The notes beneath the pieces are model-generated. The model searched no databases, was not told the DNA's origin, and saw only the letters and a list, made by a program, of their open reading frames with translations. The translations under genes were made by a program, and so were the position numbers. A stretch of 64,000 nucleotides of DNA from Roseimicrobium sp. ORNL1. GTDB lineage: Bacteria > Verrucomicrobiota > Verrucomicrobiia > Verrucomicrobiales > Verrucomicrobiaceae. The stretch spans positions 1,240,001-1,304,000 of the forward strand of contig NZ_CP049143.1 in the NCBI RefSeq assembly GCF_011044495.1, written 5' to 3'. Shown here piece by piece: positions 17,185-63,168 of the stretch (positions are counted from its first letter, which is position 1; each line of letters begins with the position of its first letter).

Positions 17185-18993
17185 ATGAGAACGCTTTTCT
17201 TCTTTGCCTTCAGTCTTTGTCTTACCGGTTCGCTTGTAGGACAAGCAACTCCTCCGAAGCCGCCGGCCACGCCAGCGGCACCGGCAACTCCGGCTGCGCC
17301 TGCAGCACCCGGTACAGCGCTGAATCCGGAGCAGGAAATGGAGCAGATGTTCAACGACATCCAGAGCTCCTTCTCCAAGGGCATGTATGACGTGGCCCTG
17401 CAAAAGATTGGGGCCTTCCATACGAAGACCAACAACAAGGACTTCCCCCAGGTGATTTTCATGGAGGGGGCCTGCCACTTCAATCTCAAGCAGTTCGACA
17501 AGGCGGCGACCTTCTTCGAGAAGTTTGTCACCACGTATCCTGAGGAGGGAGCTGTGAACGACGCCATGATGGCGCTTGGTGAGTCCTACCTCAGCGCCGG
17601 CATGGCGGAGAAGGGCATCGAGGCGCTCAAGAAAGCTGCCGCGGTGGATGAGTTGCGCGACCGCGCCGGGTTGATGATCGCCAACCACCACAAGAAGGCA
17701 GGCCAGCCGGATGAGGCGCTGCAGATTCTCGAGGTGGTGCTGAAGGACCAGCAGGGCGCGCCCACGCAGGAGCAGCAGCAGGCCATCTTGCTTGCGGCGG
17801 ACATCTATGTGGCCAAGGGCCAGTCGGACAAGGCTTCCGCGTTGATGGAGCGTCTCCGCAGCGGTACCAGCGGTGCCGAGAGCATCGTGGAACTCAACAT
17901 CCTCGCCCAAAAGGTGGGGGATGCGATGCTGGAGTCGAGCAACTTCGGGGAGGCGCTGCGTGCCTACCAGAGCATGCGCCGCCACTCGGAACTGGTGCGC
18001 CTGCAGAAGGAGCGCCTCGCTGTCATCGAGGGCTGGGTCTCGTCCATCGCCGCGGGCGGACGTGTGCAGTTCATGGGCAAGCTTCTCTCGAAGGAAGAGG
18101 CGGACGCGCTTCTCGCCCAGAACAAGAAGGTGCTGGAAGACATCGAAGCGGTGAAGGACTACGACGCGAACATCTACTACCGCCTCGGCCAGTGCTTCTA
18201 TGAGATGCAGCGCATGCACGAGGCCATCCTCGCGTTCAAGGAAGTCTACGAGAACTACAGGGAATTCCCCGGTCGTGATGGCGCCCTGTTCGGCATGATT
18301 GCCGCCAACCAGCGGATCGAACGCGCTGGCCGCGCCTACAAGCTGTGCGAGGTCTACATGAAGGATTTTCCGGATGGGAAGTTCATCAACGAAGTGACGC
18401 AGATGTTTGGCTCGCTGGCCTACGAGAGCGGCAACCTGGAAGCGGCGGAAGAATCGCTGCAGCGCGTGGTCGCTGCCACCAAGGACCCCGAGCAGAAGGT
18501 CTCGCTCATGTTCCTGCTGGGAGTGGTCCAGTTTGAAGGTCAGAAGTTCGACGCCGCCCGCGGCACCTTCCAGACCATCGTGTCCGAGCACAAGACCTCG
18601 GTGCAGCGTCCGATGGCCCAGTACTACATTGCGCTTTCGTATTTCTTCCAGAACGACTCCGTGAAGGCCCGTCGCGCTCTCCGTGATTACATCGCGGATA
18701 ATCCGAAGGGCGAAAACGTCGTGGACGCGCGCTACCGTCTCGCCTTCATCGAAGTGCAGGCGCAGACAAACCTGAAGGAGGCCCTCGCGGACCTGGAGAA
18801 GCTGACGGTGGACCATCCCAATGACCAGAACATCGGTCAGGTCTGGTCCCTGCTTGGGGACGTGTATGCCCAGCGCCAGCCCACGGAAGAAGAAGCCAAG
18901 AAGGGTGTGGACTATGTGCTCAAGACCCTGGAGGCCTACCGCAACGCGGTGGGACAAGGCCAAGTCTCCGGACGTGATCAACTACGCCATTGA
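17185..18993 (+). CDS. Exported TPR protein, N-terminal part before an apparent frameshift
   Basis: The ATG at 17185 gives a signal peptide (RTLFFFAFSLCLTGSLVGQ) and an Ala/Pro linker. A long series of tetratricopeptide-like helices follows, such as YDVALQKIGAFHTK, FNLKQFDKAATFFEKF and QKFDAARGTFQTI. After residue about 588 the frame loses TPR character and stops at 18993. The same TPR pattern resumes at once in the next frame. Removing one G from GGTGGGA at 18949-18955 would join the parts into one protein of 1015 residues. It opens the ExbB/ExbD cluster and probably acts as a periplasmic scaffold. The cause may be a base-calling error or a real mutation. Confidence 0.75.
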   Translation: MRTLFFFAFSLCLTGSLVGQATPPKPPATPAAPATPAAPAAPGTALNPEQEMEQMFNDIQSSFSKGMYDVALQKIGAFHTKTNNKDFPQVIFMEGACHFNLKQFDKAATFFEKFVTTYPEEGAVNDAMMALGESYLSAGMAEKGIEALKKAAAVDELRDRAGLMIANHHKKAGQPDEALQILEVVLKDQQGAPTQEQQQAILLAADIYVAKGQSDKASALMERLRSGTSGAESIVELNILAQKVGDAMLESSNFGEALRAYQSMRRHSELVRLQKERLAVIEGWVSSIAAGGRVQFMGKLLSKEEADALLAQNKKVLEDIEAVKDYDANIYYRLGQCFYEMQRMHEAILAFKEVYENYREFPGRDGALFGMIAANQRIERAGRAYKLCEVYMKDFPDGKFINEVTQMFGSLAYESGNLEAAEESLQRVVAATKDPEQKVSLMFLLGVVQFEGQKFDAARGTFQTIVSEHKTSVQRPMAQYYIALSYFFQNDSVKARRALRDYIADNPKGENVVDARYRLAFIEVQAQTNLKEALADLEKLTVDHPNDQNIGQVWSLLGDVYAQRQPTEEEAKKGVDYVLKTLEAYRNAVGQGQVSGRDQLRH

Positions 18994-20233
18994 AAACGCC
19001 ACCAATCTCATGGTGGAAAAGGGCATGTGGAAGGAGCTCCAGGACATGTGGAGCAAGTACTACAATGCGGAAAAGGGCAAACCCGGAGCGCTGAAGGCCA
19101 TCTACTGGATCACCCGCGCCAACGAACGTGAGGCCAAGGAGCTTCAGAGCCAGGGCAAGCTGGACGAAGCCAGGGCCGCAGAGCAGTCCGCACGCAAGCT
19201 GGTAGCCCAAGAGATGGCCCCCCACCTTGGCAATCCTGGCAATGAACAGGTAGAAGTACTCATCCAGCAGCTCACGACCATGATGGTGCCCAAGCGCCGT
19301 CCCCGCGCCGTGGTAGCTGCTGCTCCTGCCCCCGCACCTGCTGCTACTCCTGACGGCGCGGCAGCCACGCCTCCGCCTGATGGCGCTGCCGCTACTGGCG
19401 CCGCACCTGCTGCGGCCCCTGCACCTGCCGCCCCTGAGCTCACGTTTGAGCAAGTGGAAGAGGAGTTCAAACAACTCGTCACGCCGGAAGGTGGCAACAT
19501 GAATGGAACCGCCGCCGCCCGCATCCTCTACGGACGCGCGCTTATCGCCCGCCTCTTCAAAGATGTGACCAAGTTTGAGAATCTCATCAACCTCATCCCA
19601 GATGCTGCCAAGGCGGAGGAACTGAGCCCGCTGCTTCTCGCGACTCTTGGCGATCTGATGTTCAAGAAGGGTGACGTCGACAAGGCTGGTCAGTACTACG
19701 AGCAGATCCGCTTGAAGTATCCCACCAGCGAGTTCGGGGACAAGGCGCCCACCGGTCTCGGTGAAATCGCCTACCAGAAGAAGGACTACGAGAACGCCCT
19801 GACCCTGTTCACGGAGGCCGTTGAGAAGTATGGCTTCAGCCCGGACAGCATCCTGAACGGTACCCTTGGTCGTGCGAAGACCCTCCTGGCGATGGGCAAG
19901 CATGATGAGGCGCTGAAGCTGTACGAGACCGTCATCAACACCCGCGACTGGCGTCCTGCCATGCCAGAGGGCCTCTTTGGCGCCGGCCAGTCCTACGAAG
20001 CCAAGGGCGAACCGAAGAAGGCCATCGACTTCTACCGGAAAATCATCATCGCCAACCGCAAGAACAAGCCCATTCTGGCCAAAGCCTACCTGCGTGCAGC
20101 CGAGTGCTACATCCAGATCAAGGACAACGCGAGCGCCCGTACCGTGCTCGAAGAGATGTTGCGCCAGAAGGACATCACGGACCAGCCTGAGTTCGAGCAG
20201 GGCAGAACGCTTATCAATTCCGTCGGCCCCTAG
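18974..20233 (+). CDS. TPR protein, C-terminal part after the apparent frameshift
   Basis: This continues the TPR protein in the frame shifted by one base. Recognisable coding begins at about 18951 with DKAKSPDVINYAIENATN. If it is translated separately, a GTG at 18974 or the ATG at 19010 could serve as the start. An Ala/Pro/Thr-rich linker (about 19320-19435) separates two TPR blocks; the second has GDLMFKKGDVDKAGQYYEQI and AKTLLAMGKHDEALKLYETV. The sharp switch of frame with no loss of family character argues for one interrupted gene rather than two genes. The next gene starts 40 bp downstream. Confidence 0.7.
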   Translation: MINYAIENATNLMVEKGMWKELQDMWSKYYNAEKGKPGALKAIYWITRANEREAKELQSQGKLDEARAAEQSARKLVAQEMAPHLGNPGNEQVEVLIQQLTTMMVPKRRPRAVVAAAPAPAPAATPDGAAATPPPDGAAATGAAPAAAPAPAAPELTFEQVEEEFKQLVTPEGGNMNGTAAARILYGRALIARLFKDVTKFENLINLIPDAAKAEELSPLLLATLGDLMFKKGDVDKAGQYYEQIRLKYPTSEFGDKAPTGLGEIAYQKKDYENALTLFTEAVEKYGFSPDSILNGTLGRAKTLLAMGKHDEALKLYETVINTRDWRPAMPEGLFGAGQSYEAKGEPKKAIDFYRKIIIANRKNKPILAKAYLRAAECYIQIKDNASARTVLEEMLRQKDITDQPEFEQGRTLINSVGP

Positions 20234-20272
20234 TCCAGTCTATAGTATTTTGAGCAGCTTCCGCTTCGCTTC

Positions 20273-21187
20273 ATGAAAGCCGCAATCATCTTTTCATTCC
20301 TCTGCCTTTTCACCGCTGGCCTGCATGCCCAGGCGCTGGTGCTCAAGGACGGCAGCCGCATTCCGGGAGGCCAGTTCTCCATCGAGGGGGGCAAAATCCA
20401 GCAGAAAAAGACCCTCTCCAACGGCCAGTCCGCTGTGGTGATGGTGCCCGTGGAGAACATTGACCGCCTCGAGTGGCCGGAAGTCACCCAGGTCCTGGAG
20501 GCGCACACGCTGATGTCCGAGGGCAAATCGAAGGAGGCTATTGAGACCCTGCAGAAGGCCAAGGACTTCTTCAAGCCCCTGAAGTCGGTGAAAGGCAGCC
20601 CCTATAATGAGGTGGCCTTCGCCCTCGTCGAGACGATGGACCAGGCGGGCGACTTCGATGGACTGCTGCGTGCGCTGCCTGAAGTGGAAGGCATGAAGTG
20701 GGACAAGACGAAGGAGTTCAAACTCCGCATCGTGAAGCTCAACATGGACCGCCGCACCTCGTCGGATCTGGAGGCGATCCTGGGTCGTGCCGAGAGCCTG
20801 CTCCGCGATACGGACGACTCCAACGTGGCGGCCCGCCTGTGGATCACCATTGCGGAGATTCACACCCGCCAGGAGCGCTGGGAGCAGGCCTTTGAGGCCT
20901 ATCTCCACGTGCCTGTCTTCTACGGCAGCCAGGGCGCCCTGGTTCCGCAGGCCGAGTTGTCCGCCGCCCGCATGCTGGCGAAGATGGAACTTTTCAAAGA
21001 CGCCGTCGGTTATTATCAGAGAATTCAGGAACTCTATGCTGGGTCGGAGATCGCGGAGACCGCGAAGAAGGAAATGCTGCCCATCAACGGTCTGCCCAAC
21101 AAGGCGGACAAGGTTCCTGGCTCCAAGAACAAGGAGAAGGACAAGCAAGAATCACCAAAGACCGCCGCAAACCCAGATTCAAAGTAA
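20273..21187 (+). CDS. Secreted TPR-like protein
   Basis: A 304-residue protein with a signal peptide ending near AGLHAQ. A short beta-rich start follows (LVLKDGSRIPGGQFSIEGGKI), resembling small SHD1/SLAP-type modules seen in PVC proteins. Helical TPR-like repeats make up the rest (AARLWITIAEIHTRQERWEQAFEAYLHV), with a Lys-rich C-terminus. No enzyme motif is visible. It lies between the large TPR gene and exbB with 40 bp and 10 bp gaps, so it is almost certainly an operon member and probably a periplasmic adaptor. Confidence 0.7.
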   Translation: MKAAIIFSFLCLFTAGLHAQALVLKDGSRIPGGQFSIEGGKIQQKKTLSNGQSAVVMVPVENIDRLEWPEVTQVLEAHTLMSEGKSKEAIETLQKAKDFFKPLKSVKGSPYNEVAFALVETMDQAGDFDGLLRALPEVEGMKWDKTKEFKLRIVKLNMDRRTSSDLEAILGRAESLLRDTDDSNVAARLWITIAEIHTRQERWEQAFEAYLHVPVFYGSQGALVPQAELSAARMLAKMELFKDAVGYYQRIQELYAGSEIAETAKKEMLPINGLPNKADKVPGSKNKEKDKQESPKTAANPDSK

Positions 21188-21196
21188 TCAGATACC

Positions 21197-22065
21197 ATGC
21201 ACATCACATCCCCGAATCGTACCCGTTCCCGAACAACCCAATGGATTGGACGACTGCTCGTCTGTGGCACGTTGCTTTGCGGCTCCATCAATGCGTTTGC
21301 GGAGGAGGCGACTGCGCCTGCTGCAGCGGGTGAGGCGGGCAAGGCTGCGGTGCACAGGAAGACGATGCTGCAAAAGTTCCAGGAAGGTGGATGGGTGATG
21401 TACCCCATCCTTGGCTTCTCGGTGCTCACCATCTGGCTGTCCGTGGACCTCTGGATCCGCACGGGCAAGAAGAAGCTGGCTCCGGATGCGCACGTGAATG
21501 GCGCGAAGGACCTCTTCCGCATGGGGGACTACGTGGGAGCGTACCAGCACTGCAAGAACAACCCCTCCGCCTTCAGCGACGCCACCCGCGTGGCTCTCAG
21601 CTTCATCGGCGACGGCCAGCAGGCCACGGAAGACGCCATGATCGGTGAACTGAACAAGTTCAACGCCGCGACCACCACCCGAATCAACTACCTCTCCGTT
21701 ATCGGTGTGTGCACACCGATGGTGGGGCTGCTGGGTACGGTAACGGGCATGGTGACGGCGTTCGAACACCTCGGTACCGCCGGCGTGGGCGACCCCTCTG
21801 GTCTGTCCGCAGCCATCGGTGAAGTGCTCATCGCCACGGCGTCCGGTCTGGCCATCGCTATTCCGGCGTTCATGATGTTCTACGTGTGCTGCGCAACCGC
21901 CTGCAGGGTTCCATCCACTACGCCCAGGAAATCGTGGTCTCCTTGTTCCGCAAGATGCCGTACGAAGACCTCAAGGACTGCCACGTGGGTGAGGAAGAGT
22001 TCTTCGCTGCTCGCCCGAACTGGGTGGCGGACGACGCCGGTGCGGCCCATGCGGTGCCTGCCTAA
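21197..22065 (+). CDS. exbB: ExbB/TolQ/MotA proton-channel protein with an apparent frameshift
   Basis: ExbB-type stators use the proton gradient to drive periplasmic partners. A signal-like helix is followed by GWVMYPILGFSVLTIWLSVDLWI, then the conserved pair TTRINYLSVIGVCTPMVGLLGTVTGM and IGEVLIATASGLAIAIPAFMMFYV. At 21881-21890 (TACGTGTGCT) the frame is lost. The matching continuation (VLRNRLQGSIHYAQEIVV and a tail ending AAHAVPA at 22065) lies in another frame. A two-base GT gain or one-base loss would explain this. Read literally, the frame runs to 22210 with a nonsense tail overlapping exbD. A full protein would have about 288 residues. Confidence 0.82.
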
Positions 22066-22149
22066 GAGGCAAATTGAACGGAGCCTGCGTCTGCAGGCTC
22101 CAATCTCCCAAGAATCAAGTTTCAAACAATCTCTTACCTTTTCTGACTT

Positions 22150-22584
22150 ATGGGCGGCGGCGGCGGTAGTATGGAAAGCGGCGAACCGGAGTTTCAAATT
22201 GCTCCGATGATCGACTGCTTGCTCGTGTTGCTCATTTTCTTCATGAGCATCACCACGGCGTCGGTCTTGCAGATCGACAAGGACATTGTCCTGCCCGTGG
22301 CCCCAGACGCGAAAAAGGCGGAGAAGGCCAAGGTCCAGGAAGGCGCCATCAATGTGAAGTGGGATCCGAAGACCCAGAAGGGAGTATTCTCGTTCGAGGG
22401 TGCCACCTTTGATGACACCGCGTTGCTGGTGGAGCGGCTGAAGCAACGCAAGGAGACCATTGAAGGCTACCGCCTCATCATTCGCGGTGACAGTCGCCTG
22501 CCTGCCGTCGAGATCCAGCGGACCATGAGCATCCTGGCTAATGCGGGGTACTCGGATCTTTCCTTCTCGGCGTTGAATCAGTAG
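22150..22584 (+). CDS. exbD: ExbD/TolR-family protein 1
   Basis: A 144-residue ExbD with a Gly-rich start, one transmembrane helix and a periplasmic domain. The motif FQIAPMIDCLLVLLIFFM carries the conserved membrane aspartate (D22) that binds the proton in the ExbB-ExbD channel. The C-terminal RLIIRGDSRLPAVEIQRTMSI matches the ExbD periplasmic fold. It lies directly downstream of exbB and 49 bp upstream of a second exbD. Confidence 0.92.
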   Translation: MGGGGGSMESGEPEFQIAPMIDCLLVLLIFFMSITTASVLQIDKDIVLPVAPDAKKAEKAKVQEGAINVKWDPKTQKGVFSFEGATFDDTALLVERLKQRKETIEGYRLIIRGDSRLPAVEIQRTMSILANAGYSDLSFSALNQ

Positions 22585-22633
22585 TCCAGTCAGACAGACA
22601 GACAGTTTCCAGTTCTTCTTCCTAATTCCTCAA

Positions 22634-23116
22634 ATGAGCAGTCACGGACACCGTCGGCGCAGAGAGATTGAAACTGAGAATCCCAACGCCGGATTCCAGA
22701 TCGCACCCATGATCGACGTGGTGTTCGTGATCATGCTTTTCTTCATGGTCATGGCCAACAGCGTGAAGGTGGAGTACGAGCTGAAGACAGCGCTCCCCGG
22801 CGTGGCCACCACTACCAACGACGACGTGGTGCTGCCGGATGAAATCACCATCGAAGTGGCTGAGGACGACCTCGTCACCATGAATGAAGAGGTGTATGAC
22901 GCCGGTCTGCCTCCCGACCAGGCCAAGAAGTTGCCGACCCTCACCGACAGCCTCATCCGCCTGAAAAAGGATGCGGATGACCGGGGCAGCAAAGTCCTCG
23001 TGACCCTGGTGACCGAGGAGCAGGCCAAGTACGGTCGCATCATTGACGTGATGAACGCCCTCGCCAAGGCCAAGATTTCCAACGTGACCTTCACCGTCGG
23101 CTCTGAAGAATTTTAG
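22634..23116 (+). CDS. exbD: ExbD/TolR-family protein 2
   Basis: A second ExbD of 160 residues. A basic cytoplasmic tail (HGHRRRRE) precedes FQIAPMIDVVFVIMLFFMVM with the proton-binding aspartate D28. The periplasmic part includes SKVLVTLVTEEQAKYGRIID, analogous to the usual ExbD segment. Two different ExbDs after one ExbB suggest a heteromeric ExbD dimer in the stator. The first toroid gene follows 77 bp downstream. Confidence 0.92.
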   Translation: MSSHGHRRRREIETENPNAGFQIAPMIDVVFVIMLFFMVMANSVKVEYELKTALPGVATTTNDDVVLPDEITIEVAEDDLVTMNEEVYDAGLPPDQAKKLPTLTDSLIRLKKDADDRGSKVLVTLVTEEQAKYGRIIDVMNALAKAKISNVTFTVGSEEF

Positions 23117-23193
23117 GAGTTTGTGCTACAAGTTTTTTTACCGCATGTGCTAATATCGCGGTGTCATGGTCGTTATTTGGCCACTTCCCGCTC

Positions 23194-24954
23194 ATGAGTG
23201 AACAGCAATCATCCAGTGGCAATCCCGTGCCACCGCCGAATCCCGGCGTGCCGCCCGTCCAGATCCAGTCTCTGACCCCTGGTGGGAGCAGCTCTTCTGC
23301 CGTGCCGATTCCGGCTGCGCCCGTGATTCCGCCTCCCACGGCATCCTCCGCGGTGCAGCTCGAGACGGCTGCCTATGAAGAAGGCGCACCCGTCTATGCC
23401 GAGGGGCACCCTGAGTTTCAGCAGCCGCACTACGCTCCGGCCCCCAAGAAGAATATCTTTGTCCAGTACTGGAACAAGGTGGGTGGCGGTTCCTTCCTCA
23501 TCAGCTTGCTCATCCACGCCGGCCTGCTCATTGGTGCCTTCTTCATTGTGAAGGAGTACAGCACGGAGAAGAAGGTCGACTTCCTCCCCGGTGGCGGCAA
23601 CAAGGAAGGGCAGCAGGCTAGCCAGCAGCTCTCCCAGAAGGTGCAGAACAAAAAGCGCAGCTCGCTGAACAAGAGCAATCCCATGCGCAAGGTGGTGTCC
23701 ATGAGTGCCACGAGCGCCATTTCGCTTCCGGAAGTGCCGATGGAGTCCATCGACATGCCGGAAATGAGCAGCCTCATGGGCGGCTCGATGGGCAGTGGTG
23801 GTTTCGGCAGCGGCGGTGCGGGTGGTGGATTTGGCAAGGGTACCGGCATCGGTGGCAATACCGGCTTCGTGAGCCTGCCTCCCTCCATGAGAAGCCGCTG
23901 CAGCAGCGCGGAACGTCTTCAGAAGCTCAAGGAAAGCGGTGGCACTGCCGAGTGTGAGCGCGCCGTGAGCAATGCCTTGGAATATCTCAAGAGCAAGCAG
24001 AAGCCGGATGGCAGCTGGGGCACCAACTCCAAGGGCGCCATGACTGGCTTTGCCCTCCTGTGTTTCCTCGGCCGCTGCGAGACGCCGGAGTCCATCTACT
24101 ACGGCGACAATGTGATGAAGGGCATTCTCTTCCTCATTGAGATGCAGAAGAAGAATCCCTACAAGATGTTCAGCCAGGCCACCTCGGGCAACGCTCCAGT
24201 GTACGAGCACGGCATCGCGACCTACGCCCTCGGCGAGATGTACACGCTGGCTCGTATGGGCAGCAAGTCGCTCCCGGGCATGCGCGAGGCATTTGAGGAC
24301 GGCGTGAAGGTCATCATCGACAACCAGCAAGCTGGCGGCAGCTGGGTGTATGACACGGAGAAGGGCTTCTACTCTCCCAGCCGCGAGGACCTTTCCGTCA
24401 CGGGCTGGCAATACCAGGCGCTCAAGGCCGCCAAGCTCACCAGCCTGAAGATCAATGGCCTGGGTCCTGCCATCGACAAGACCGTGAAGTACATCGAGGG
24501 CAAGCAGACCAAGGACGGCGGCATCGGCAACCCCAACCGTGAAGGTGGCTACAACCAGTGGAACCTGACCGGCGCCGGCACTCTGGGTCTCCAGACGCTC
24601 GCCCATGGTGGCAAGAAGACGGAAATCAAGAAGGCCATCGGCTTCGCACACGAACTCTTCAAGAAGGAGCCGCCGGAATTCACCACGGGCGACATGTACG
24701 GCTGGTACTACTACCACCAGTGCTTCTTCCAGTATGGCGGTGAGGAATGGAAATACTGGAACGAGCTTGTGCTTCCGCAGCTCCTCAAGGCCCAGCAGCC
24801 GGATGGCAGCTGGAAGCCCAATGGCGCCGCGCACAATCCTTCCGCCGGTGGCGACAATGTCTACTCCACTGCCCTGTGCACCCTCATGCTGGAGGTGTAC
24901 TACCGCTACCTGAAGGTCGGCGACCGCGAGCAGAAGTCGATGTTCGACCGGTAA
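23194..24954 (+). CDS. TM-anchored alpha/alpha toroid protein 1 (squalene-cyclase fold)
   Basis: From the ATG at 23194 the protein has 586 residues. A Pro-rich cytoplasmic N-terminus contains VQIQSLTPGG. One transmembrane helix follows (about 99-120, LISLLIHAGLLIGAFFIV), then a Gly/Met-rich periplasmic linker and a prenyltransferase/squalene-oxidase-repeat toroid (about 230-586). QW-like repeats are visible as QKPDGSWGT, QQAGGSWVYD, QTKDGGIG and QQPDGSWKPN. No DxDD or DCTAE cyclase motif is seen, so binding is more likely than catalysis. The anchor looks like TonB but no TonB C-terminal domain is present. It follows ExbB-ExbD-ExbD, which points to a force-driven partner. Confidence 0.85.
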   Translation: MSEQQSSSGNPVPPPNPGVPPVQIQSLTPGGSSSSAVPIPAAPVIPPPTASSAVQLETAAYEEGAPVYAEGHPEFQQPHYAPAPKKNIFVQYWNKVGGGSFLISLLIHAGLLIGAFFIVKEYSTEKKVDFLPGGGNKEGQQASQQLSQKVQNKKRSSLNKSNPMRKVVSMSATSAISLPEVPMESIDMPEMSSLMGGSMGSGGFGSGGAGGGFGKGTGIGGNTGFVSLPPSMRSRCSSAERLQKLKESGGTAECERAVSNALEYLKSKQKPDGSWGTNSKGAMTGFALLCFLGRCETPESIYYGDNVMKGILFLIEMQKKNPYKMFSQATSGNAPVYEHGIATYALGEMYTLARMGSKSLPGMREAFEDGVKVIIDNQQAGGSWVYDTEKGFYSPSREDLSVTGWQYQALKAAKLTSLKINGLGPAIDKTVKYIEGKQTKDGGIGNPNREGGYNQWNLTGAGTLGLQTLAHGGKKTEIKKAIGFAHELFKKEPPEFTTGDMYGWYYYHQCFFQYGGEEWKYWNELVLPQLLKAQQPDGSWKPNGAAHNPSAGGDNVYSTALCTLMLEVYYRYLKVGDREQKSMFDR

Positions 24955-24990
24955 ACAACGGCAGACGGTAGACAGCCATAAAAGTTTTGT

Positions 24991-25019
24991 GAAGGGCCTC
25001 CGCGGAGGCCCTTCATTGT
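24991..25019 (+). terminator. Terminator after toroid gene 1
   Basis: A perfect 12 bp stem (24991-25002 with 25003-25014, minimal loop from the CGCG centre) is followed by ATTGTTT. It separates the main ExbB/ExbD operon from the second toroid gene. Confidence 0.8.
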
Positions 25020-25157
25020 TTACGGGGGGGCGTGGGGTTTGTGCCAGCGGCAGTGTGTTCCTGTATTACCTGCCTGCCGACGGCATCATGGTGTATCATA
25101 TCCGGATTCCACAAGACGCATGTCCGTCAAGAGTAAGAACTCCAGAACGTTTTAGGC

Positions 25158-25497
25158 ACGTCTCGTGATGTGTCCGGCACGAACCAGCCTGGAGTCTCCA
25201 TGAGCGGACACGCACCTTGCGCGCAGCGCTTTGGAGTGCGCGTACGAAGTACCGCTTTGGGAGGAGGCGCCACGAGGTGGTTGACGCAGAAGCTATCCAT
25301 AACTTCAAGCGGAGGTCGCGGGTCACTGCGTTCTTGTGATGTAAAACTACCTGGTGGGAGCGTGCCTGCAGGAAGCTCTTCACCACAAAGCTTCCCACCA
25401 AAGCGGTGCTTCGCACACGCACTCCAAGGCGCTGCGCGCAAGGTGGTTCGTCGCAGAGTTGCGTCTCGCCGCGAGGGCTGTTCAGATCACGAGACGT
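25158..25497. repeat. Element D: long inverted repeat between the toroid genes
   Basis: The outer 12-base arms ACGTCTCGTGAT (25158-25169) and ATCACGAGACGT (25486-25497) are perfect reverse complements. Inside, about 52-base arms (25213-25264 and 25393-25445) also pair with a few mismatches and a small gap. Together they could fold into one large hairpin. The rest of the 783 bp gap between the toroid genes, including 25500-25737 just before toroid gene 2, shows nothing I can name. Confidence 0.85.
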
Positions 25498-25737
25498 TTC
25501 TGATTTGCTTCATGTCTATGTTAACCGGACGCAGATGCGCTTTGCGGGATCCTTCCCCCCTTTCAGGGCGCAATACAACGGCTGAGCATGATGCTATCGC
25601 AGTGAGTTGTTATACAAGCCTCAATAACATCAGCCAAGGCGCGCACCATCACTACGCGGCGGCGGGGCTTTTCTTGGAAGATTCAGCAAGTGACTCTCCA
25701 CTCTCGTCATGCCGGGCGAACTCAAGACGCCTCTGCC

Positions 25738-27507
25738 ATGAACGAACCATCATCGTCTCCGCAACGCCACGAGGACCGGCCATCTGGGGAAGTGGCCAGG
25801 ACCGTCCAGATACAGTCTCTTACCCCGGGTGGGGGCCATCCACCTGACCAAGCTGCACCTCAGTCCTCCGTCGCACCTTCTGGGAAGGGGATGAAACCGG
25901 CGCTCGTGCAAGTCGCTGCGGTTGACTACGGGTCCGAGCCATCTGGCGGGCTGCATGCATCATCAGCAGGAATATCGGGCGGCGTCGTGAAAAGGAATCT
26001 CCTTGAGGTCTATTGGGAGAAGGTGGGCGGTGGGTCGTTTCTCGTCAGCCTGGTGATTCACGCTGGGCTCTTGATTGGGGCCTTCTTCGTGGTGAAGGAA
26101 TACCAGCAGGAACCCGAAGTGGACTTCATGCCTCACGGAGAGGGTGCGGCAATGCATCAAGCAAATGTCAATCTCACGAAGACGGTTCAGAACTCAAAGA
26201 CCAGCAGACTGAAAGATTCTCTCAGGCCACAGAGGCTTGTGGTTCCCGGGCCGTCAAACCATCTGATGTTGCCTGAGTCCCCCATGGACGTCGAGTTGCC
26301 GGACGTGTCTCCCGACCTCGGGAGCGGCGGCCCCATGGGTGTGCCCGGTCCAGGTACAGGGAAGTTTGGGCCAGGTGGTCAACCGGGTGGGAGCACAGGT
26401 CAGGGAACTGCTTCCCGCTGGGTGCAACTCCCCATTTCCATGCGGGGCCGCTGCGGCAGCGCAGAACGTCTTCAGAAACTCAAGGAGAGCGGCGGCTCCG
26501 CCGAGTGTGAGCGCGCGGTGAGCAACGCGCTGGAATACCTCAAGAGCAAGCAGAAGCCCGATGGCAGTTGGGGCACCAATTCCAAGGGGGCCATGACCGG
26601 CTTTGCTCTCTTGTGCTATCTCGGTCGCTGCGAGACGCCGGAGTCCATCTACTACGGGGACAATGTGATGAAGGGCATTTTGTTTCTCGTCGAGATGCAG
26701 AAAAAGAATCCCTACAAGATGTTCAGCCAGGCGACCTCGGGGAATGGGCCGGTGTATGAGCATGGCATCGCGACGTATGCCTTGGGTGAGATGTACGCGC
26801 TAGCTCGCATGGGAGGCAAATCGCTGCCGGGGATGCGCGAGGCTTTTGAGGACGGCGTGAAGGTCATCATCGACAACCAGCAGCCAGGAGGAAGCTGGGT
26901 GTATGATACGGAGAAGGGATTCTACTCACCGGGTCGTGAGGACCTCTCCGTCACTGGATGGCAATATCAGGCGCTCAAATCAGCGAAGCTCTCCGGCTTG
27001 CAGATTGAGGGTCTGAACGGCGCGATTGAGAAGACGGTGAAATATCTCGAAGGCAAGCAGACCAAGGATGGTGGTATCGGCACGATGAATCGCGAAGGCA
27101 GCTACAATCAGTGGAACCTCACGGGTGCCGGCACCTTGGGACTCCAGACACTCGCGCATGGTGGGAAGAAGACGGAAATCAAGAAGGCCATTGCGTTTGC
27201 CCATGACCTTTTCAAAAAGGAACCGCCGGCCTTCGAGACGGGCGACATGTACGGCTGGTACTACTATCACCAGGCGTTCTTCCAGAACGGTGGTGAGGAG
27301 TGGAAGTATTGGAATGAGGCGGTGCTGCCGCAGATTCTGAAGGCGCAACAGGCGGATGGCAGTTGGAAGCCCAATGGGGCGGCGCACAATCCCTCGGCGG
27401 GTGGGGATAACGTTTATTCGACCGCGCTATGCACGCTCATGCTGGAGGTGTACTACCGGTATCTGAAGGTGGGGGACAGGGAGCGGGGGTCGTTGTTTGA
27501 TCGGTGA
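25738..27507 (+). CDS. TM-anchored alpha/alpha toroid protein 2
   Basis: A 589-residue paralogue of the upstream toroid protein. It keeps the VQIQSLTPGG motif, the KVGGGSFLVSLVIHAG transmembrane entry and a Gly/Pro linker (GVPGPGTGKFGPGGQPGG). The toroid, with QKPDGSWGT, QQPGGSWVYD, QTKDGGIG and QQADGSWKPN, is about 90% identical to copy 1 by eye, while the cytoplasmic region and linkers have diverged strongly. It probably has its own promoter because a terminator and a large inverted repeat separate it from copy 1. The two may mix in one complex or serve different ligands. Confidence 0.85.
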   Translation: MNEPSSSPQRHEDRPSGEVARTVQIQSLTPGGGHPPDQAAPQSSVAPSGKGMKPALVQVAAVDYGSEPSGGLHASSAGISGGVVKRNLLEVYWEKVGGGSFLVSLVIHAGLLIGAFFVVKEYQQEPEVDFMPHGEGAAMHQANVNLTKTVQNSKTSRLKDSLRPQRLVVPGPSNHLMLPESPMDVELPDVSPDLGSGGPMGVPGPGTGKFGPGGQPGGSTGQGTASRWVQLPISMRGRCGSAERLQKLKESGGSAECERAVSNALEYLKSKQKPDGSWGTNSKGAMTGFALLCYLGRCETPESIYYGDNVMKGILFLVEMQKKNPYKMFSQATSGNGPVYEHGIATYALGEMYALARMGGKSLPGMREAFEDGVKVIIDNQQPGGSWVYDTEKGFYSPGREDLSVTGWQYQALKSAKLSGLQIEGLNGAIEKTVKYLEGKQTKDGGIGTMNREGSYNQWNLTGAGTLGLQTLAHGGKKTEIKKAIAFAHDLFKKEPPAFETGDMYGWYYYHQAFFQNGGEEWKYWNEAVLPQILKAQQADGSWKPNGAAHNPSAGGDNVYSTALCTLMLEVYYRYLKVGDRERGSLFDR

Positions 27508-32116: not shown

Positions 32117-32526
32117 CTTGAAGAGCCCGGTGCTTCTCCCCTGGGACGAATGGTCCCTTTTCATGTCTCGCCCCAGGAACTGCTTTCAGCGGCGATATGA
32201 TGTACTATGTCATGATATATAATAAGATGTTCTATCGAGGACAACGCTAAGGTCAGATTAGGTGTTTAGCCTCGCGTTGACTTGCCTGGATTTGTAGAGC
32301 CGTGTCTTGCTCGCGATTGTTTGGGCAATGGCTGTTCATGGGGTGCCGTTTCGGGGGACAGGGGTTGTTCATTGTGTAGTGAAGCGGGGGCTCTGGCGGC
32401 TGAAGGTCGTGCCGTTTTGCGTTGCGAGGGGTGACTTGCCCAAGGATGCACGGGGCGCAGCAAACTCCCCACGGCGACGCCAGCAGAACTGGAGGTCGCC
32501 GCGCATGCGCCGTCCACCACACTCCC

Positions 32527-34785
32527 ATGAATATCACATCCTCTCACACTACCACCGAGGGGCGATTCACACGCTTCGGGCTGGCCGTTTTGGCTGGCTT
32601 GACTTGCGGAGGTCTTGCCCTGGCACAGTCACCATCACAAACTTCGCCCCCGGCGAAACCAGCTCCTCCGGAGGCTGCCATCACCCTGCCGCCGGTCACG
32701 GTCACGGCAGAGACACCGCTGCGTACGAAGGAAGATTTGTTGAATCTGCCCCAAGCTATCACCGTCATTGAGCGGGAGGATCTCGTCCGCAGGCAACCTC
32801 GCACGCCCATTGAGGCGCTGCAGGAGGAGCCCGGCATCTGGGCTGTGAGCGTCGCTGCGCAAGGCTCGCCAATCATTCGCGGCCAGCTTGGCAATCGCAA
32901 TCTCTACCTCTGGGATGGAGTGAGAATCAACAACGGCGCCGGTTTTGGTGGCCCCAGTCCCTTCTTCAATCAGTACCCCATCGGCGCATTGGATCGCGTG
33001 GAAGTGATTCGCGGGTCGGGCTCGGTGCAGTATGGCAGCGATGCTATCGGTGGCGTGGTGAACCTCCTCACCCGTCGCGCCTCGTTCTCGGATACGGTGG
33101 ATGTGGGTGGTGAATTGTATGGACGCTATGGCTCCAACGACGACGAGTTCACCGAGACACTCGATGTGCACGCCACTGGCCCCACGCTTGCCTTCTCCGC
33201 AGGCATCACGCGACAGGATGTGGATGACTACCGTGGACCCGGTGAAGGGACGCTGAGTCCCACGAGTTATGAAGCGACCGGTGGCTATGCCAACCTGGCC
33301 TTCCGCCCGGCGGAGGGACACACCTTCCGACTCTCGTGGATTCACAACCGTCGTGACGACGTTGAAACGTATGTGCAGTCCAAGCTGAATGCGAATGGCG
33401 TGCCGCGCATCTTCACACCCGATGAGACGCGGGGGATTGTGAAGTTCGACTACACCGCGGAGAACCTTGGTTCCTGGAGTGATGAGCTGAAAATCTACGG
33501 CTACTACCACTACTATGACCAGCTCTCTGAGCGCCGCCGTCAGAATGATACCAGCTTCAGCAACACCGCGACGACCACGGACCAGGAGGTGCTCGGCGTG
33601 GGTATCCAGAATGCCGTCTCGTTTGAGAGGAACTCCGCCCGCCTCATCTACGGCGTGGACTATCGCTATGAGATGCTGGACTCTTCCATCAGCCAGTCCA
33701 TCCGCGACTTTGCCTCGGGAAACACCCGCGTGGTGGAGCCCTATGGCAATGTGCCAGATGGTACCTACGACGTGTTCGATGCGTTTGCCACGTTTGAGTT
33801 TCGCCCCACCCAGCGACTGCTCCTCACCGTGGGAGCCCGCTTTGAGAACTCGCATATCAATTCGGATCCTTCGCAGAGTGATGTGATCCCTGATGCCGGA
33901 TATGACATCAATGACCTCTCGATTGATGAGAGCTGGCAGTCCGTCACCTGGAATGCCGGTGCCATCTATAATGTCACGGACAACTGGGATCTCGTGGGCA
34001 ATATTGGCAGCGGATTCCGTGCGCCTGGCTATTGGGACTTGTTGAGTGCGGGTACGCCCACGTTCTCCAGCCGCATCGCCTACCTGCCCAGCCCCAATCT
34101 GGACCCGGAGAAGTCCATCACCTTTGAGTTCGGTCCGCGCTACCATTCGTCGCGCACGAACTTCTCGCTGGTGGGCTTCTATACGAAACTGGATGATCTC
34201 ATCGGTTCGCAGACGGAAGGCACCGTAACGCTTCCCGGACAGGGAACCTTCGCCGCCACGCATGAGGCGAACATTGGAGAGGGTTATGTCACCGGTGCCG
34301 AGCTCGCGCTGGCGTATGAGCTGGCGGATGACTGGACAGTCTTCGGCAATGCCACCTACACGTATGGGAAGGACACCGCGAGCGGCTATCCACCGCGGTT
34401 CATTCCGCCCTTCTTCGGCACGGTGGGTCTGCGCTATGAGCATCCCTCCGGTCGCTGGTGGGTGGAGGTGGTGGAGGTCTTCTCGGACCGCCTGCGCAGA
34501 CACGCGCCGGATGATGAGCAGGATGCGGGCTTCTCCAAGGACCCTGCCTATGGTTCACCGAATGATACAAACAATCCGCCTCTGCGTGATGATTTCACCA
34601 TCCCCGGATGGGCCATCACGAATGTGCGTGGTGGGGTGAATGTGTGGCGTGAGGGAGACCGGGCACTGGATCTGACCCTGGCCTTCAACAACATCTTCGA
34701 CACGCGCTACCGCGAAGCTTATGCCCAGCGGCAGAAAGTGGCTCCGGGGTTCGGCATTGTCGTGGGTGCGCGACTGACGTTCTAA
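32527..34785 (+). CDS. TonB-dependent outer-membrane receptor
   Basis: A 752-residue receptor starting at the ATG at 32527, with a signal peptide ending near GLALAQ. It has a TonB-box-like LPPVTVTAE and a plug domain (LNLPQAITVIEREDLVRRQ, IIRGQLGNRNLYLWDGVRINN, DRVEVIRGSGSVQYGSDAIGGVVNL). The 22-strand barrel ends in Phe (GARLTF). It is 6 bp upstream of a CobN/HmuS-like chelatase gene, which suggests that it imports haem, a cobalamin-like corrinoid or another metal-tetrapyrrole. Barrel sequence alone does not reveal the ligand. Confidence 0.93.
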   Translation: MNITSSHTTTEGRFTRFGLAVLAGLTCGGLALAQSPSQTSPPAKPAPPEAAITLPPVTVTAETPLRTKEDLLNLPQAITVIEREDLVRRQPRTPIEALQEEPGIWAVSVAAQGSPIIRGQLGNRNLYLWDGVRINNGAGFGGPSPFFNQYPIGALDRVEVIRGSGSVQYGSDAIGGVVNLLTRRASFSDTVDVGGELYGRYGSNDDEFTETLDVHATGPTLAFSAGITRQDVDDYRGPGEGTLSPTSYEATGGYANLAFRPAEGHTFRLSWIHNRRDDVETYVQSKLNANGVPRIFTPDETRGIVKFDYTAENLGSWSDELKIYGYYHYYDQLSERRRQNDTSFSNTATTTDQEVLGVGIQNAVSFERNSARLIYGVDYRYEMLDSSISQSIRDFASGNTRVVEPYGNVPDGTYDVFDAFATFEFRPTQRLLLTVGARFENSHINSDPSQSDVIPDAGYDINDLSIDESWQSVTWNAGAIYNVTDNWDLVGNIGSGFRAPGYWDLLSAGTPTFSSRIAYLPSPNLDPEKSITFEFGPRYHSSRTNFSLVGFYTKLDDLIGSQTEGTVTLPGQGTFAATHEANIGEGYVTGAELALAYELADDWTVFGNATYTYGKDTASGYPPRFIPPFFGTVGLRYEHPSGRWWVEVVEVFSDRLRRHAPDDEQDAGFSKDPAYGSPNDTNNPPLRDDFTIPGWAITNVRGGVNVWREGDRALDLTLAFNNIFDTRYREAYAQRQKVAPGFGIVVGARLTF

Positions 34786-34791
34786 GCGGCG

Positions 34792-37700
34792 ATGTTGCCT
34801 GGCATCACCAAGTTGATTAAAACCATTGCGACCACCACAGCGCTTCTGCTGTGGTGGTCTGCAGCTGTATTGATGGCTCAACAAACGACGCAGCCCTCTG
34901 CGAAGCTGGCCTTCGTGGGGGTGTGGGAGCGCTCCATGCCGCTGCTGGACCAGGCGTGTCGTGAGCATGGGGTGGCAGCGGGATTCTATTCCGCCGGTGA
35001 GTTTGCCAAGTTGGACAGCAAGGAGGCATCGGCATTTCCCGTCGTGCTTGTGCTCAACATTGATGCCTCAAGCACCTCAGCGCTTACGACGAAGCTGAAG
35101 GAGGCTCATGAGGGCAATGCCGCCCAGAAGGTGCTCTCACTCGATACACGCGACAGCCAGGTAGATCTGGAGAAGCAGGGCCTGCTGATCCAGGATCCGG
35201 CACTGCGCAGCTATTGGCGTGGGAATGGACCCACCAATGTCACCCGCATGATTGGCTACTGTGGGAAGACCTATCTTGGATTGGAGAAAGAAGTGCTGCC
35301 TCCCATCATCATTCCTGAGTTCGGTTATTATGCTCCAGGACACGAGGATGCTTTCACAGACATCGAGCACTATCGTGAATTTCAAAAGTCGAAGCAGCGC
35401 TGGAAGGATGATGTGCCCGTGGCGGTGCTTGTGATTCAGCAGTCCTTCTGGATTACCCGGGACCTGAAAGTGGTGAACGCGCAAATGGAGGCCCTTGAGC
35501 GACACGGCCTGAATCCCGTGGTCATCTTCGGCGACAGTGCGGACAAGGTGAATGGCCTCATTCGTGCGGCGAAGCCGGCGATTCTCATCGAGGACCGTCA
35601 TGGCTCGAACTGGAACAACGGGGAGTTCCTCAAGGAGCTCGACATTCCCTATCTACGGCCCGTGTCCATGCTGGCCTCTACGGTGGACGAGTGGCAGAAG
35701 AATCCGCGCGGTCTTTCCTATCAGGACGTGGGCCTCTTCATGTCGCTGCAGGAGTACTGGGGCACGATTGAGCCGATGGTTGTGGGTGGATTGCAGGCGA
35801 GCATCCAGGGATTCCGTCTGCATGAGCCCATCCCGGACCGCGTGGAGGCCTTTGCGGCACGCGCCGCGAAGCTGGTGGCCCTGCGCACGAAGAAGAATGC
35901 GGAGAAGAAGGTAGCCATCATCTATTACAACAAGGGGCTCGGGCAGGATGACCTGATGCGCGGCAGTCCCACCGGTGCGTTTCTGGATGGGCCGGAGAGT
36001 CTGGTGCGTTTCCTGCCACGCCTGCAGGCGGCGGGCTACATGATGGAGAAGCTGCCAGCCACGGCTGCGGCTTTGATAGAGGACCTGAAAAAGAGGGGGC
36101 GGAACATCGGACCCTGGGCGCAGGGCGATTTAGAAAAGCTCGCGGATGAAGGAGAGCCAGCCCTGATTCCTCTCAGAGTGTATCAGAAGTGGTTTGATAC
36201 CCGTCTCAGTGAAGAGGGACGCAAGGCAGTGGTCGACAAATATGGTCCGCCACCCGGGCGCCTCATGGTGGTGAAGCGCAATGGTGAACCGCATCTGGTA
36301 ATACCGCGCATCCAGATGGGGAATGTCATTCTCACGCCGCAACCCGAGCGCGGGCACAAGCAGGACGACAAGCTGCTGCACTCACGTGATGTGCCGCCGC
36401 CGCACTGCTATCTCGCCTTCTACTGGTGGCTGGAGGAGGAGTTCGGGGCGGATGCGATTCTGCACTGGGGCACGCATGGTTCGCTGGAACTGCTGCCGGG
36501 AAAGGAGAACGGACTCTCCAAGGATTGCTGGAGTGATGTGTGCGTCAGCAGGATGCCGGTGATCAATCTCTGGATCACGGATAACCTCGCCGAGGCCACC
36601 GTGTCGCGCCGCCGCTCCTATGCCACGCTGGTGGATCACCGCGTGCCGCCGGCGCTGACCGCAGGGCTCTCGGAGGAGTTCAAGACGCTGCATGATGACA
36701 TTCACAAGTTCAACACGCTGGAGCCTGGGTTGTTGAGGGAGGAATTTCGCAAGGGCATCAGCGAGCAAATCACACGTGAGGATATGGAGCTCGTGGCGCG
36801 TGCTCCAGAGGGCAAGAAGCCCTTCCCGGATGAAGCGATTGCGCGTGTCGATGACCATTTGCATCATCTGTATGACTCGCAGACGCCCACGAGGCTGCAC
36901 ATCCTCGGACAGCCGCCCACGGAGCAGGAGCGGCTTCCGTATCTGACTTCCATCCTTGGGTCGAGGTATCTGAAGCATCTCAGTGAGGCCGCGCCCTTCA
37001 TCAAGAACATGGAGCATGACAAGCAGATGCAGCGCGATGCGGCCGCACGATTGCTGGGGGATGCGCTCGAGGGCAAGGTGGACACCGCCATGCCGCGTAC
37101 GCCGGAGATAGAGAAGGATGTGGCCTTCGCCCGGGACGTGCAGGAGAGACTCATGAATGCGGACTCGGAGATTACCGGGCTCATCCACGCGCTGGACGGT
37201 GGCTACACGCTGCCCGGACCCGGGCCGGACCCGATTCGCAATTCCGGTTCATTGCCCACGGGACGAAACTTGTACTCGCTCAATCCGGAGGAGATACCCA
37301 ATCGCGCGGCATGGGAGGTGGGCTGCCGCTTGGTGAATGACTTGCTGCGCGATCGCAAGCCGAAGAAGATAGGCATGGACCTCACGGGCATGGAGACCAT
37401 GTGCGACTACGGCGTTATGGAGGCGCAGATTCTCTTCCTGCTGGGCGTGCGCCCCGTGTGGGACCACAACAACCTGGTGAATGACGTCGAACTCATTCCG
37501 ATGGAAGAGTTGAAGCGTCCGCGAGTGGATGTCTTCATTGCGGTGGGAGGCGATTACAAGGAAACCTTCGGCTCCCGTATGGTGCTGCTGGATAAGGCCG
37601 TGCGGCTGGCAGCGGCTGCGAAGGAGGAGAAGAATCCCGTGCGTGATGCCGTGACGGAGATGGAATCACGACTGCATCGCCGCGGATTCTCCAGCGCACG

Positions 37701-38784
37701 TGCCTCGCAGTTCTCACTGGCACGCATCTTCGGCACAAAGCCGGGAAACATGACCGGCACCCACATCCTCTATCTCGTGCCGCGCTCGGGTGTCTGGGAG
37801 AATCGGGACGAAATCACCGGCGTATACACGGACAACATGAGCTATGTGTACAGCGGTGAGGTGTGGGGTGAGAAAGTGGACGGTCTCTATGAAGAAGCCA
37901 TCCAGGGCACGGACACAGTCTTGCGCGTGTGGGCTTCCAACATGACGAGCCAGCTCACCAATCACCATTCGTACGAGTATTTCGGCGGGCTCAGCATGGC
38001 GGTGAAGAAGTTGACGGGGATCACCCCGCAGGCCTTGATTGCTGACGTACGCAGCCCTGATGGCGCTAGCATCCGCGACCTTGAGGAGGTGCTGGCCACA
38101 AACCTGCGCTCTGAGCTACTGGGCAAGAAGTGGCTGCAGGGCATGAAGAGCCATGACTACGCTGGCGCGGGCCACATCGCGGAGATGGTGAAGAACACCT
38201 TTGGCTGGTCCGTCACGCGGCCTGAGAGTATTTCCCAGCAGACGTGGACGGATATCTACGAAGTGGTGCTGAAGGACCGGCACAAGCTGGGACTGGAGGA
38301 ATGGTTCGAGAAGGTGTCACCGCATGCCAAGCAGGAGATTGCGGCCACGTTGTTGGAGGCGGCGAGGAAGGGCATGTGGCAGGCGAGTGAGGCGCAGATT
38401 GCGGATATCACGCGCATGTATGCAGACTCCATCGCGCGGCATGGGGACTCCGGCGGACTCGTGAGTGGAGGCAATGTGAAGCTCGCCAGCTATGCGGCCA
38501 AGACCTTGGTTTCCGGAGGCGTGTCCAAAGATCAGGAGCTGGCGAAAGCGATGCAGGAATCCCTCGCAAAATCCTCGGCCGCAGGAGCGGAGGAGAAGGT
38601 GGTGGGGCAGAAGCTGGAGAACGTCACCGAGCAGAAAAACAAGCAGAAGGCGGAGGAAGAGAAGGCGGCTGAGGAGCAGGCACAGGCGGCCGGGAAGCCG
38701 ACCTTCAACTGGACTTATCTCGCGGGCGCCTTCGTTCTGGCGCTGCTCATCGTGGGATTCTTCAGGAAGTCGGGCTCGGTATGA
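34792..38784 (+). CDS. Periplasmic membrane-anchored CobN/HmuS-family chelatase subunit
   Basis: A 1330-residue CobN/ChlH-superfamily protein. The signature HWGTHGSLELLPGKENGLS and AEATVSRRRSYATLVDHR is diagnostic. Unlike cytoplasmic CobN it begins with a signal-like hydrophobic helix (TALLLWWSAAVLMAQ) and ends with an Ala/Glu/Lys-rich stalk and a C-terminal transmembrane helix (AGAFVLALLIVGFF). It should therefore face the periplasm. This layout, with a TonB receptor upstream and ExbB-like and DUF2149 genes downstream, matches Bacteroidota hmuRSTU-type loci, in which HmuS is implicated in removing iron from haem. Cobalt insertion is less likely because CobS/CobT are absent. The family is certain; the haem role is inferred. 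Confidence 0.88.
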   Translation: MLPGITKLIKTIATTTALLLWWSAAVLMAQQTTQPSAKLAFVGVWERSMPLLDQACREHGVAAGFYSAGEFAKLDSKEASAFPVVLVLNIDASSTSALTTKLKEAHEGNAAQKVLSLDTRDSQVDLEKQGLLIQDPALRSYWRGNGPTNVTRMIGYCGKTYLGLEKEVLPPIIIPEFGYYAPGHEDAFTDIEHYREFQKSKQRWKDDVPVAVLVIQQSFWITRDLKVVNAQMEALERHGLNPVVIFGDSADKVNGLIRAAKPAILIEDRHGSNWNNGEFLKELDIPYLRPVSMLASTVDEWQKNPRGLSYQDVGLFMSLQEYWGTIEPMVVGGLQASIQGFRLHEPIPDRVEAFAARAAKLVALRTKKNAEKKVAIIYYNKGLGQDDLMRGSPTGAFLDGPESLVRFLPRLQAAGYMMEKLPATAAALIEDLKKRGRNIGPWAQGDLEKLADEGEPALIPLRVYQKWFDTRLSEEGRKAVVDKYGPPPGRLMVVKRNGEPHLVIPRIQMGNVILTPQPERGHKQDDKLLHSRDVPPPHCYLAFYWWLEEEFGADAILHWGTHGSLELLPGKENGLSKDCWSDVCVSRMPVINLWITDNLAEATVSRRRSYATLVDHRVPPALTAGLSEEFKTLHDDIHKFNTLEPGLLREEFRKGISEQITREDMELVARAPEGKKPFPDEAIARVDDHLHHLYDSQTPTRLHILGQPPTEQERLPYLTSILGSRYLKHLSEAAPFIKNMEHDKQMQRDAAARLLGDALEGKVDTAMPRTPEIEKDVAFARDVQERLMNADSEITGLIHALDGGYTLPGPGPDPIRNSGSLPTGRNLYSLNPEEIPNRAAWEVGCRLVNDLLRDRKPKKIGMDLTGMETMCDYGVMEAQILFLLGVRPVWDHNNLVNDVELIPMEELKRPRVDVFIAVGGDYKETFGSRMVLLDKAVRLAAAAKEEKNPVRDAVTEMESRLHRRGFSSARASQFSLARIFGTKPGNMTGTHILYLVPRSGVWENRDEITGVYTDNMSYVYSGEVWGEKVDGLYEEAIQGTDTVLRVWASNMTSQLTNHHSYEYFGGLSMAVKKLTGITPQALIADVRSPDGASIRDLEEVLATNLRSELLGKKWLQGMKSHDYAGAGHIAEMVKNTFGWSVTRPESISQQTWTDIYEVVLKDRHKLGLEEWFEKVSPHAKQEIAATLLEAARKGMWQASEAQIADITRMYADSIARHGDSGGLVSGGNVKLASYAAKTLVSGGVSKDQELAKAMQESLAKSSAAGAEEKVVGQKLENVTEQKNKQKAEEEKAAEEQAQAAGKPTFNWTYLAGAFVLALLIVGFFRKSGSV

Positions 38785-38800
38785 TGTGATGTAACAGGAT

Positions 38801-62018: not shown

Positions 62019-62103
62019 CTCTGGACCGCCTGCGCCGGGATGGGCTTGCCTTCCCTCCCGGCGGTGAAGTACACTTGCCCCGTCCCCGCCCCCGTCTTCT
62101 TCC

Positions 62104-63156: not shown

Positions 63157-63168
63157 CCCAAGTTACCC

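Follow-up and report, generated by a model that had tools for sequence, protein, structure and literature searches.

Force transducers with a VWA head are known from the Planctomycetes-Verrucomicrobia-Chlamydiae (PVC) group, where they are described as carrying an SHLS motif and being encoded next to a TPR gene, a tolQ-like gene and two tolR-like genes (Williams-Jones et al. 2025, PMC12204202). A role in gliding has been put forward there for VWA transducers in such a setting (PMC12204202 section 8). This class is direct prior art for the kind of system analyzed here, an operon at positions 17185-27507 of a 64,000-nucleotide stretch of Roseimicrobium sp. ORNL1 DNA (contig NZ_CP049143.1, positions 1,240,001 to 1,304,000; the whole stretch is referred to as the window), which encodes two TPR proteins (TPR1 and TPR2), ExbB, two ExbDs (ExbD1 and ExbD2) and two membrane-anchored alpha/alpha toroids (Tor1 and Tor2). 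A second related system is the MUL1 locus, reportedly tied to mucin use in the gut bacterium Akkermansia by Davey et al. 2023. MUL genes are needed for the accumulation of mucin products in internal compartments, as stated in a passage of a review (PMC12418764), and a Mul1A association is mentioned in a part of PMC11790493. The absence of MUL1 synteny from aquatic Akkermansiaceae has been read as a mucin-specific adaptation (PMC13174399).

Comparison of the operon with other genomes leads us to favor, on balance, the explanation that it encodes an ExbB/ExbD motor working with swappable-head transducers and with TPR1 and TPR2, and that, judged by the kinship of its genes with MUL1-type loci, this machine serves the uptake or handling of glycans.

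Results

Tor1 and Tor2 combine a TonB-like anchor with a toroid head

Open reading frames and Pfam matches place TPR1, TPR2, ExbB, ExbD1, ExbD2, Tor1 and Tor2 in this order in a single plus-strand operon. Together with an AlphaFold2 model of Tor1 they agree with the initial annotation, which had listed the same two TPR proteins, one ExbB, two ExbDs and two anchored toroids; TPR1 and ExbB were found to be frame-broken. ExbB matched Pfam MotA_ExbB with 73.5 bits (gathering cut-off 22.9), and both ExbDs scored above the gathering cut-off of their family (25.4).

Tor1 starts with a disordered N-terminus, which is followed by the anchor helix, a stalk and the toroid (residues ~230-575). AlphaFold2 predicted the toroid mostly well, with a few low-confidence loops, and the stalk with low confidence. 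The S-x3-H anchor motif is present in Tor1 (S104, H108) and likewise in Tor2. Neither protein matched the TonB C-terminal domain (PF03544) at E 0.05, nor was a VWA head found by Pfam or structural matches, which identified the head as a toroid. The Pfam match to SQHop_cyclase_C is borderline (26.6 and 25.5 bits for the two proteins, cut-off 26.1). Compared with squalene-hopene cyclases, the Tor1 toroid reached a VIA-align Z of 25.1 (8paj_B, 290 residues, 3.3 A), with many sugar-acting alpha/alpha-barrel enzymes scoring just below (Z 21-25 overall), and the top ranks of a Foldseek search were taken by the sugar enzyme AprG and a squalene-hopene cyclase.

DxDD is the catalytic motif of squalene-hopene/terpene cyclases. 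As had been noted from the sequence at the outset, DxDD and DCTAE occur in neither window toroid protein; a DxDD pattern, counted regardless of its position, is present in 3 of the 30 proteins with an anchored toroid. NCBIfam cyclase models scored the window toroids far under their cut-offs. A lipid, hopanoid or cyclase reading was therefore rejected, also since other heads occupy the same slot in related operons (see below).

The two toroid proteins are 91% identical in the toroid and 49% identical in anchor and stalk. This difference between the toroid halves (23896-24948 and 26461-27501) and the anchors looks like gene conversion. Between the two genes lies an inverted repeat (25213-25445) with 56-nt arms that are 88% complementary and 121 nt apart.

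The same anchor occurs with three kinds of head

The genome of the window, a single contig of 7,957,748 bases, encodes three further proteins with the same anchor and stalk. Two have PA14-like heads (63% and 53% identity in anchor and stalk) and one, L036, has a VWA-like head (48% identity over a longer stretch); by genome position, ExbB/ExbD matches were found near none of the three. For wider searches a first anchor profile was built from 7 sequences and a broader one from 36 rows, in the alignment of which the anchor His is invariant. Eighty regions round anchor matches were chosen from the rows listed; the simple in-house ORF caller used for gene calling gave no anchor gene in two of them (L087, L096). 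Together with the window's own genome and three named genomes, and with identical proteins merged, these regions yielded 98 distinct anchor proteins, 35 with a PA14, 33 with a VWA and 30 with a toroid head, among which BLAST found no match between head classes at E 1e-4.

When ten PA14- and VWA-type representatives were searched with Pfam (E <=0.05), PA14 was detected in five, VWA in two and nothing in three, including the own-genome VWA-like protein, with some of the matches lying below the curated cut-off. Of the 33 VWA-headed proteins, 32 have the VWA motif DxSxS. L102 and L103, truncated at a contig end ahead of the anchor helix, were excluded from the count of the anchor His, which was found in 95 of 96 readable helices (82 by the SxxxH pattern and another 13, in which the Ser is replaced, by inspection); the sole exception is a Roseibacillus protein. 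Running the broader profile on 22 chosen genomes gave 29 rows, and the 24 for which a locus was available are all anchored and bear a head of one of these three types; they come from families f4 and f5, other genera of f2 and two further families. Anchored toroid proteins of f4 (L211, L212, L215, L272, L276) show a long region of TPR-like appearance before the membrane helix.

The operon recurs, and its head slot is shared

Operons of this kind are also present in other families. Among the 80 chosen regions, 23 have an ExbB-ExbD-ExbD operon and TPR genes directly beside the anchor gene. In 22 of these the head slot, behind the last ExbD, is taken by a toroid (16), a PA14 (5) or a VWA protein (1), and in the 23rd (L147) a VWA anchor gene lies directly upstream of TPR1. 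Of all anchored toroid genes, 22/30 lie within 4 kb of exbB/exbD, in 18/22 genomes. The lack of a conserved linkage to exbB/exbD, which the initial annotation had named as a finding that would speak against its proposal, was thus not observed.

Three g8 genomes (L112, L114, L121) carry a second ExbB-ExbD-TPR (~800 aa) set directly 3' of the toroid gene. Toroid relatives from planctomycetes (L012-L021) were considered as members of this system and rejected, as those inspected mostly have a signal-peptide-like start and gave no anchor match. Most of them adjoin a conserved protein of ~800-870 aa and one of ~1400-1550 aa; we take the large neighbor to be of the DUF4175/MoxR type.

Co-occurrence was determined in 384 genomes of the class. 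The TPR2 profile matched 257 of them at E 1e-5 or better and 66 strongly (E <=1e-30, a threshold set once the list had been viewed). Matches to the first anchor profile were obtained in 55 genomes, all of which belong to the set of 66, leaving 11 with TPR2 only. The broader anchor profile matched 92 genomes at E 1e-4, including 65 of the 66; it adds 10 of the 11 TPR2-only genomes, and the one still missing is a 76%-complete genome. In genera g7, g8 and g10 some genomes have both TPR2 and the anchor and others have neither.

TPR1 and TPR2 are related to proteins of MUL1-type loci

The NCBIfam model for Mul1B (NF052542) scored TPR2 with 22.8 bits, below its cut-off of 75. In 56 genomes of the order it found matches in 41, above the cut-off in 20; the window genome, G071, G152, G171, G398 and G410 each gave only one match, to the TPR2 encoded in this operon. 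The strongest matches come from genus g6 of family f2, presumably Akkermansia. Among 17 MUL1-type regions, 13 show the order ExbB-ExbD-ExbD-large TPR-Mul1B, with three ExbDs in two of them; of the other four, two are cut by contig ends and two (f5) gave no ExbB match by profile.

An hhalign comparison of TPR2 with Mul1B gave a score of 157 over 261 columns, including the N-terminal region (probability 99.4), against scores of 34-99 for five TPR controls. Three of these controls compare TPR2 or Mul1B with TPR1 sets, and one more comparison of this type scored 57. Two controls used the 3-row TPR family A8, which is too easy as a control (probability 37 and 15); richer TPR controls reached a probability of 87-97.5. 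When the TPR1 of relatives was aligned with the large TPR protein found in MUL1-type loci, the score was 584 over 856 columns, compared to 167 (probability 99.2) and 93 for controls; one other long protein of L154 was left out of the TPR1 alignment. Judged by these profiles, kinship with the MUL1-type proteins is the best match each time, though the TPR background is high. A Foldseek search with TPR2 listed generic TPR proteins, with BamD on top.

The operon thus contains the gene set of a MUL1-type locus in a different order. The kinship of these core genes points to the uptake of macromolecular glycans, which is probably the function of the system, rather than to a lipid or hopanoid partner of the toroid as initially suggested, for which no support was found.

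A transducer beside the motor of MUL1-type loci was considered as well and rejected: upstream genes that were inspected look unrelated, and neither profile nor BLAST searches detected a transducer gene in the 17 regions. In one locus, L271 (G408), the gene of an anchored toroid lies between the ExbD and TPR1 genes of a MUL1-type operon; this is the only such case. Each of six g6 regions (L263-L268) encodes between one and three anchored toroids, a few of them broken or truncated, and their helix lacks SxxxH. When g6 genomes were searched for toroids, several showed anchored toroids, up to three in tandem, and others none; the anchor profile found no match in the four g6 genomes to which it was applied.

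For an ExbB tree the window ExbB was trimmed to its first 230 residues and L085 to its last 290; L079, whose DNA is that of L009, and L046, which duplicates the window gene, were omitted. The tree resolves a clade of TPR-first loci (28 rows) and a clade of MUL1-type loci (13 rows), with supports of 97/95 and 95/96. A common ExbB clade for both types of loci was rejected, as the tree does not join them.

Features and surroundings of the operon

The coordinates of the operon genes and of the segments of the toroid proteins are compiled in Table 1. Two minus-strand genes on the left of the operon are taken to be proA and proB, and two on the right, likewise on the minus strand, aroE and gltX.

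Table 1. Genes and protein segments of the toroid operon (positions in the window).
Feature	Position	Strand	Evidence
TPR1, large TPR protein with signal-peptide-like start	17185..20233	+	ORFs, Pfam
TPR2, N-terminal beta region followed by TPR helices, Mul1B-like	20273..21187	+	Pfam, NCBIfam, profile comparison
ExbB/TolQ-like motor subunit	21197..22065	+	Pfam MotA_ExbB
ExbD1, ExbD/TolR-like subunit 1	22150..22584	+	PF02472, 58.2 bits
ExbD2, ExbD/TolR-like subunit 2	22634..23116	+	PF02472, 66.8 bits
Tor1, anchored toroid, putative force transducer	23194..24954	+	Pfam, AlphaFold2, structural matches
Tor1 anchor helix, residues 98-122, S104-x3-H108	23485..23559	+	
Tor1 periplasmic stalk	23560..23880	+	VDFLPGGG and KKR...IxLPE segments, common to PA14-/VWA-headed paralogues
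Tor1 alpha/alpha toroid head, residues 230-575	23881..24918	+	AlphaFold2, structural matches
Tor2, second anchored toroid	25738..27507	+	Sequence comparison with Tor1
Tor2 anchor helix with SLVIH	26035..26094	+	

Elsewhere in the genome four canonical TonB_C matches and ten receptor plug matches were detected. Since separate TonB_C genes exist, the operon was rejected as the canonical TonB system for receptor plugs. Further genes for ExbB-like proteins lie in the window itself. At 32422-39798 a TonB-dependent receptor, a CobN-like chelatase, an ExbB-like protein and a DUF2149 protein are encoded in a row; this second energised import cluster looks unrelated to the toroid operon. Another ExbB-like protein, encoded at 60582-64000, has an N-terminal zinc-ribbon-like stretch, and 3' of its gene two proteins with an N-terminal hydrophobic helix are encoded, which are ExbD/MotB-like in appearance and gave no Pfam ExbD match.

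Discussion

A proposed motor with exchangeable transducer heads

We propose that the operon would encode a proton-driven ExbB/ExbD motor. TonB-like transducers, whose heads would be exchangeable, would transmit its force through the periplasm, and the two periplasmic TPR proteins would be partners in this machinery. The toroid would be one type of head, and the PA14 and VWA heads on the same anchor, mostly encoded elsewhere, would probably plug into the same motor. Large glycans would be its most likely cargo, with the machine energising their uptake or handling at the outer membrane. That the toroid proteins act as the force-transducing element of the ExbB/ExbD motor had been suggested by the initial annotation; comparison supports this part of it, through the anchor His, the slot shared by three heads and the co-occurrence of anchor and TPR2.

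Several observations weigh against this proposal. The reading frame of TPR1 is broken once, near 18955-18975, and that of ExbB once, near 21888. Beyond 4 kb of exbB/exbD lie 8 of 30 toroid, 27 of 35 PA14 and 32 of 33 VWA genes, one of the latter (L147) still adjoining TPR1, and with nine ExbB homologues in the window genome the orphan transducers might use another motor. The TPR2 cut behind the co-occurrence was chosen afterwards, 27 genomes without strong TPR2 match the broader anchor profile (five at E 1e-7 or better), and a Fisher value should not be read as a probability, since species do not count as independent observations and some of the genomes scored had also supplied sequences for the profiles. 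Matches between TPR families occur in any case, with control probabilities of 87 to 99, and in the ExbB tree other ExbBs share the fork that holds the two clades. Besides the lack of a transducer gene in the 17 MUL1-type regions, the anchored proteins of the inspected Akkermansia-like and Roseibacillus-like genomes lack SxxxH, making the coupling to a motor doubtful there. Finally, conserved residues in the toroid may leave room for an enzymatic role.

Alternative explanations

The alternative that survives best is a force transducer for envelope maintenance, adhesion or gliding, Tol-Pal-like or AglZ/CglB-like, with no part in glycan uptake. Gliding is what was proposed for the VWA transducers. 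The first piece of TPR1 exceeds the NCBIfam cut-off for YbgF (107 vs 90 bits), and for both ExbDs the best NCBIfam model is TolR, with scores below its cut-off. However, TPR1 and TPR2 match MUL1-type proteins better than control TPR sets, and the MUL genes are reported to take part in mucin accumulation. We consider this alternative unlikely.

Less probable still is that the toroid is a sugar- or isoprenoid-acting enzyme that is merely anchored near ExbB/ExbD, with no force passing through it. Its fold is shared by cyclases and many sugar enzymes, residues Y337, H339, W384, D399, S401 and Y506 are conserved across the anchored toroids, several of them also in secreted relatives, and secreted-looking toroid versions without an anchor exist. 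However, the same anchor and slot also bear PA14 and VWA heads, the anchor His is kept, and the cyclase motifs are missing from the window toroids.

A decaying, non-working locus in this strain appears just as improbable as an anchored enzyme: the two frame breaks lie within ~3 kb and both genes are intact in Verrucomicrobium sp. BvORR034 and BvORR106 (TPR1 1025-1026 aa as called, ExbB 297-298 aa), which have the same operon with a third ExbD and neighbors of the same kind, but the frames of ExbD1, ExbD2, TPR2, Tor1 and Tor2 are open and well conserved, and sequencing errors would look identical to decay.

Implications

If the proposed motor with exchangeable heads is correct, toroid and PA14 domains would join the short list of heads of TonB-like force transducers, and heads would be interchangeable modules on one motor. 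MUL1-type loci would gain candidate transducers and a wider kinship in Verrucomicrobiae, which contrasts with the interpretation of the absent synteny as a mucin-specific adaptation (PMC13174399). The proposal also bears on how these bacteria bring whole polysaccharides into the periplasm, and it names candidate genes. More tentatively, and with somewhat less than even probability, Verrucomicrobiota could possess a general machine for the import of polysaccharides or glycoproteins, in which one ExbB/ExbD motor, with TPR1 and a Mul1B-like protein at its side, serves several TonB-like transducers with swappable toroid, PA14 and VWA heads, the majority encoded at a distance from it. The MUL1 locus of Akkermansia would then be the form of this machine in one lineage and would not have arisen specifically for mucin.

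Comparison with described systems

Compared with the published VWA class, three points are new as far as our literature searches show: heads of the toroid and PA14 types, the pattern of three head classes, and the relationship to MUL1-type loci. In the main text of PMC12204202, neither 'toroid' nor 'PA14' occurs. Transducers with toroid or PA14 heads appeared in none of the titles and abstracts listed, and the searches found nothing that joins ExbB, 'squalene oxidase repeat' and Planctomycetes.

With squalene-hopene cyclases the window proteins share the alpha/alpha toroid fold and QxxDGSW repeats; unlike these enzymes they are membrane-anchored, lack DxDD/DCTAE and score far under the NCBIfam cyclase cut-offs. 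The motor family, the single anchor helix with SxxxH and the linker are those of TonB and TolA with ExbBD and TolQR, whereas the window proteins end in a toroid head in place of a TonB C-terminal domain. Like MUL1-type loci, the operon has ExbB, two ExbDs, a large TPR protein and a Mul1B-like TPR protein. It differs from them in that MUL1-type loci put the motor genes first and, except for L271, have no transducer match, and in the low score of TPR2 with the Mul1B model.

The closest resemblance is to the VWA transducers as described in PMC12204202, with which the window proteins share a transmembrane helix with an SHLS-type motif, a disordered linker, a non-TonB head and neighboring genes for a TPR protein, a TolQ-like protein and two TolR-like proteins. 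The window's own genome also encodes a paralogue, L036, in which this anchor bears a VWA head. The system described here departs from the published class in its heads, which are toroids in the window and PA14 domains in other proteins, and in its operon, which includes a second, Mul1B-like TPR gene.

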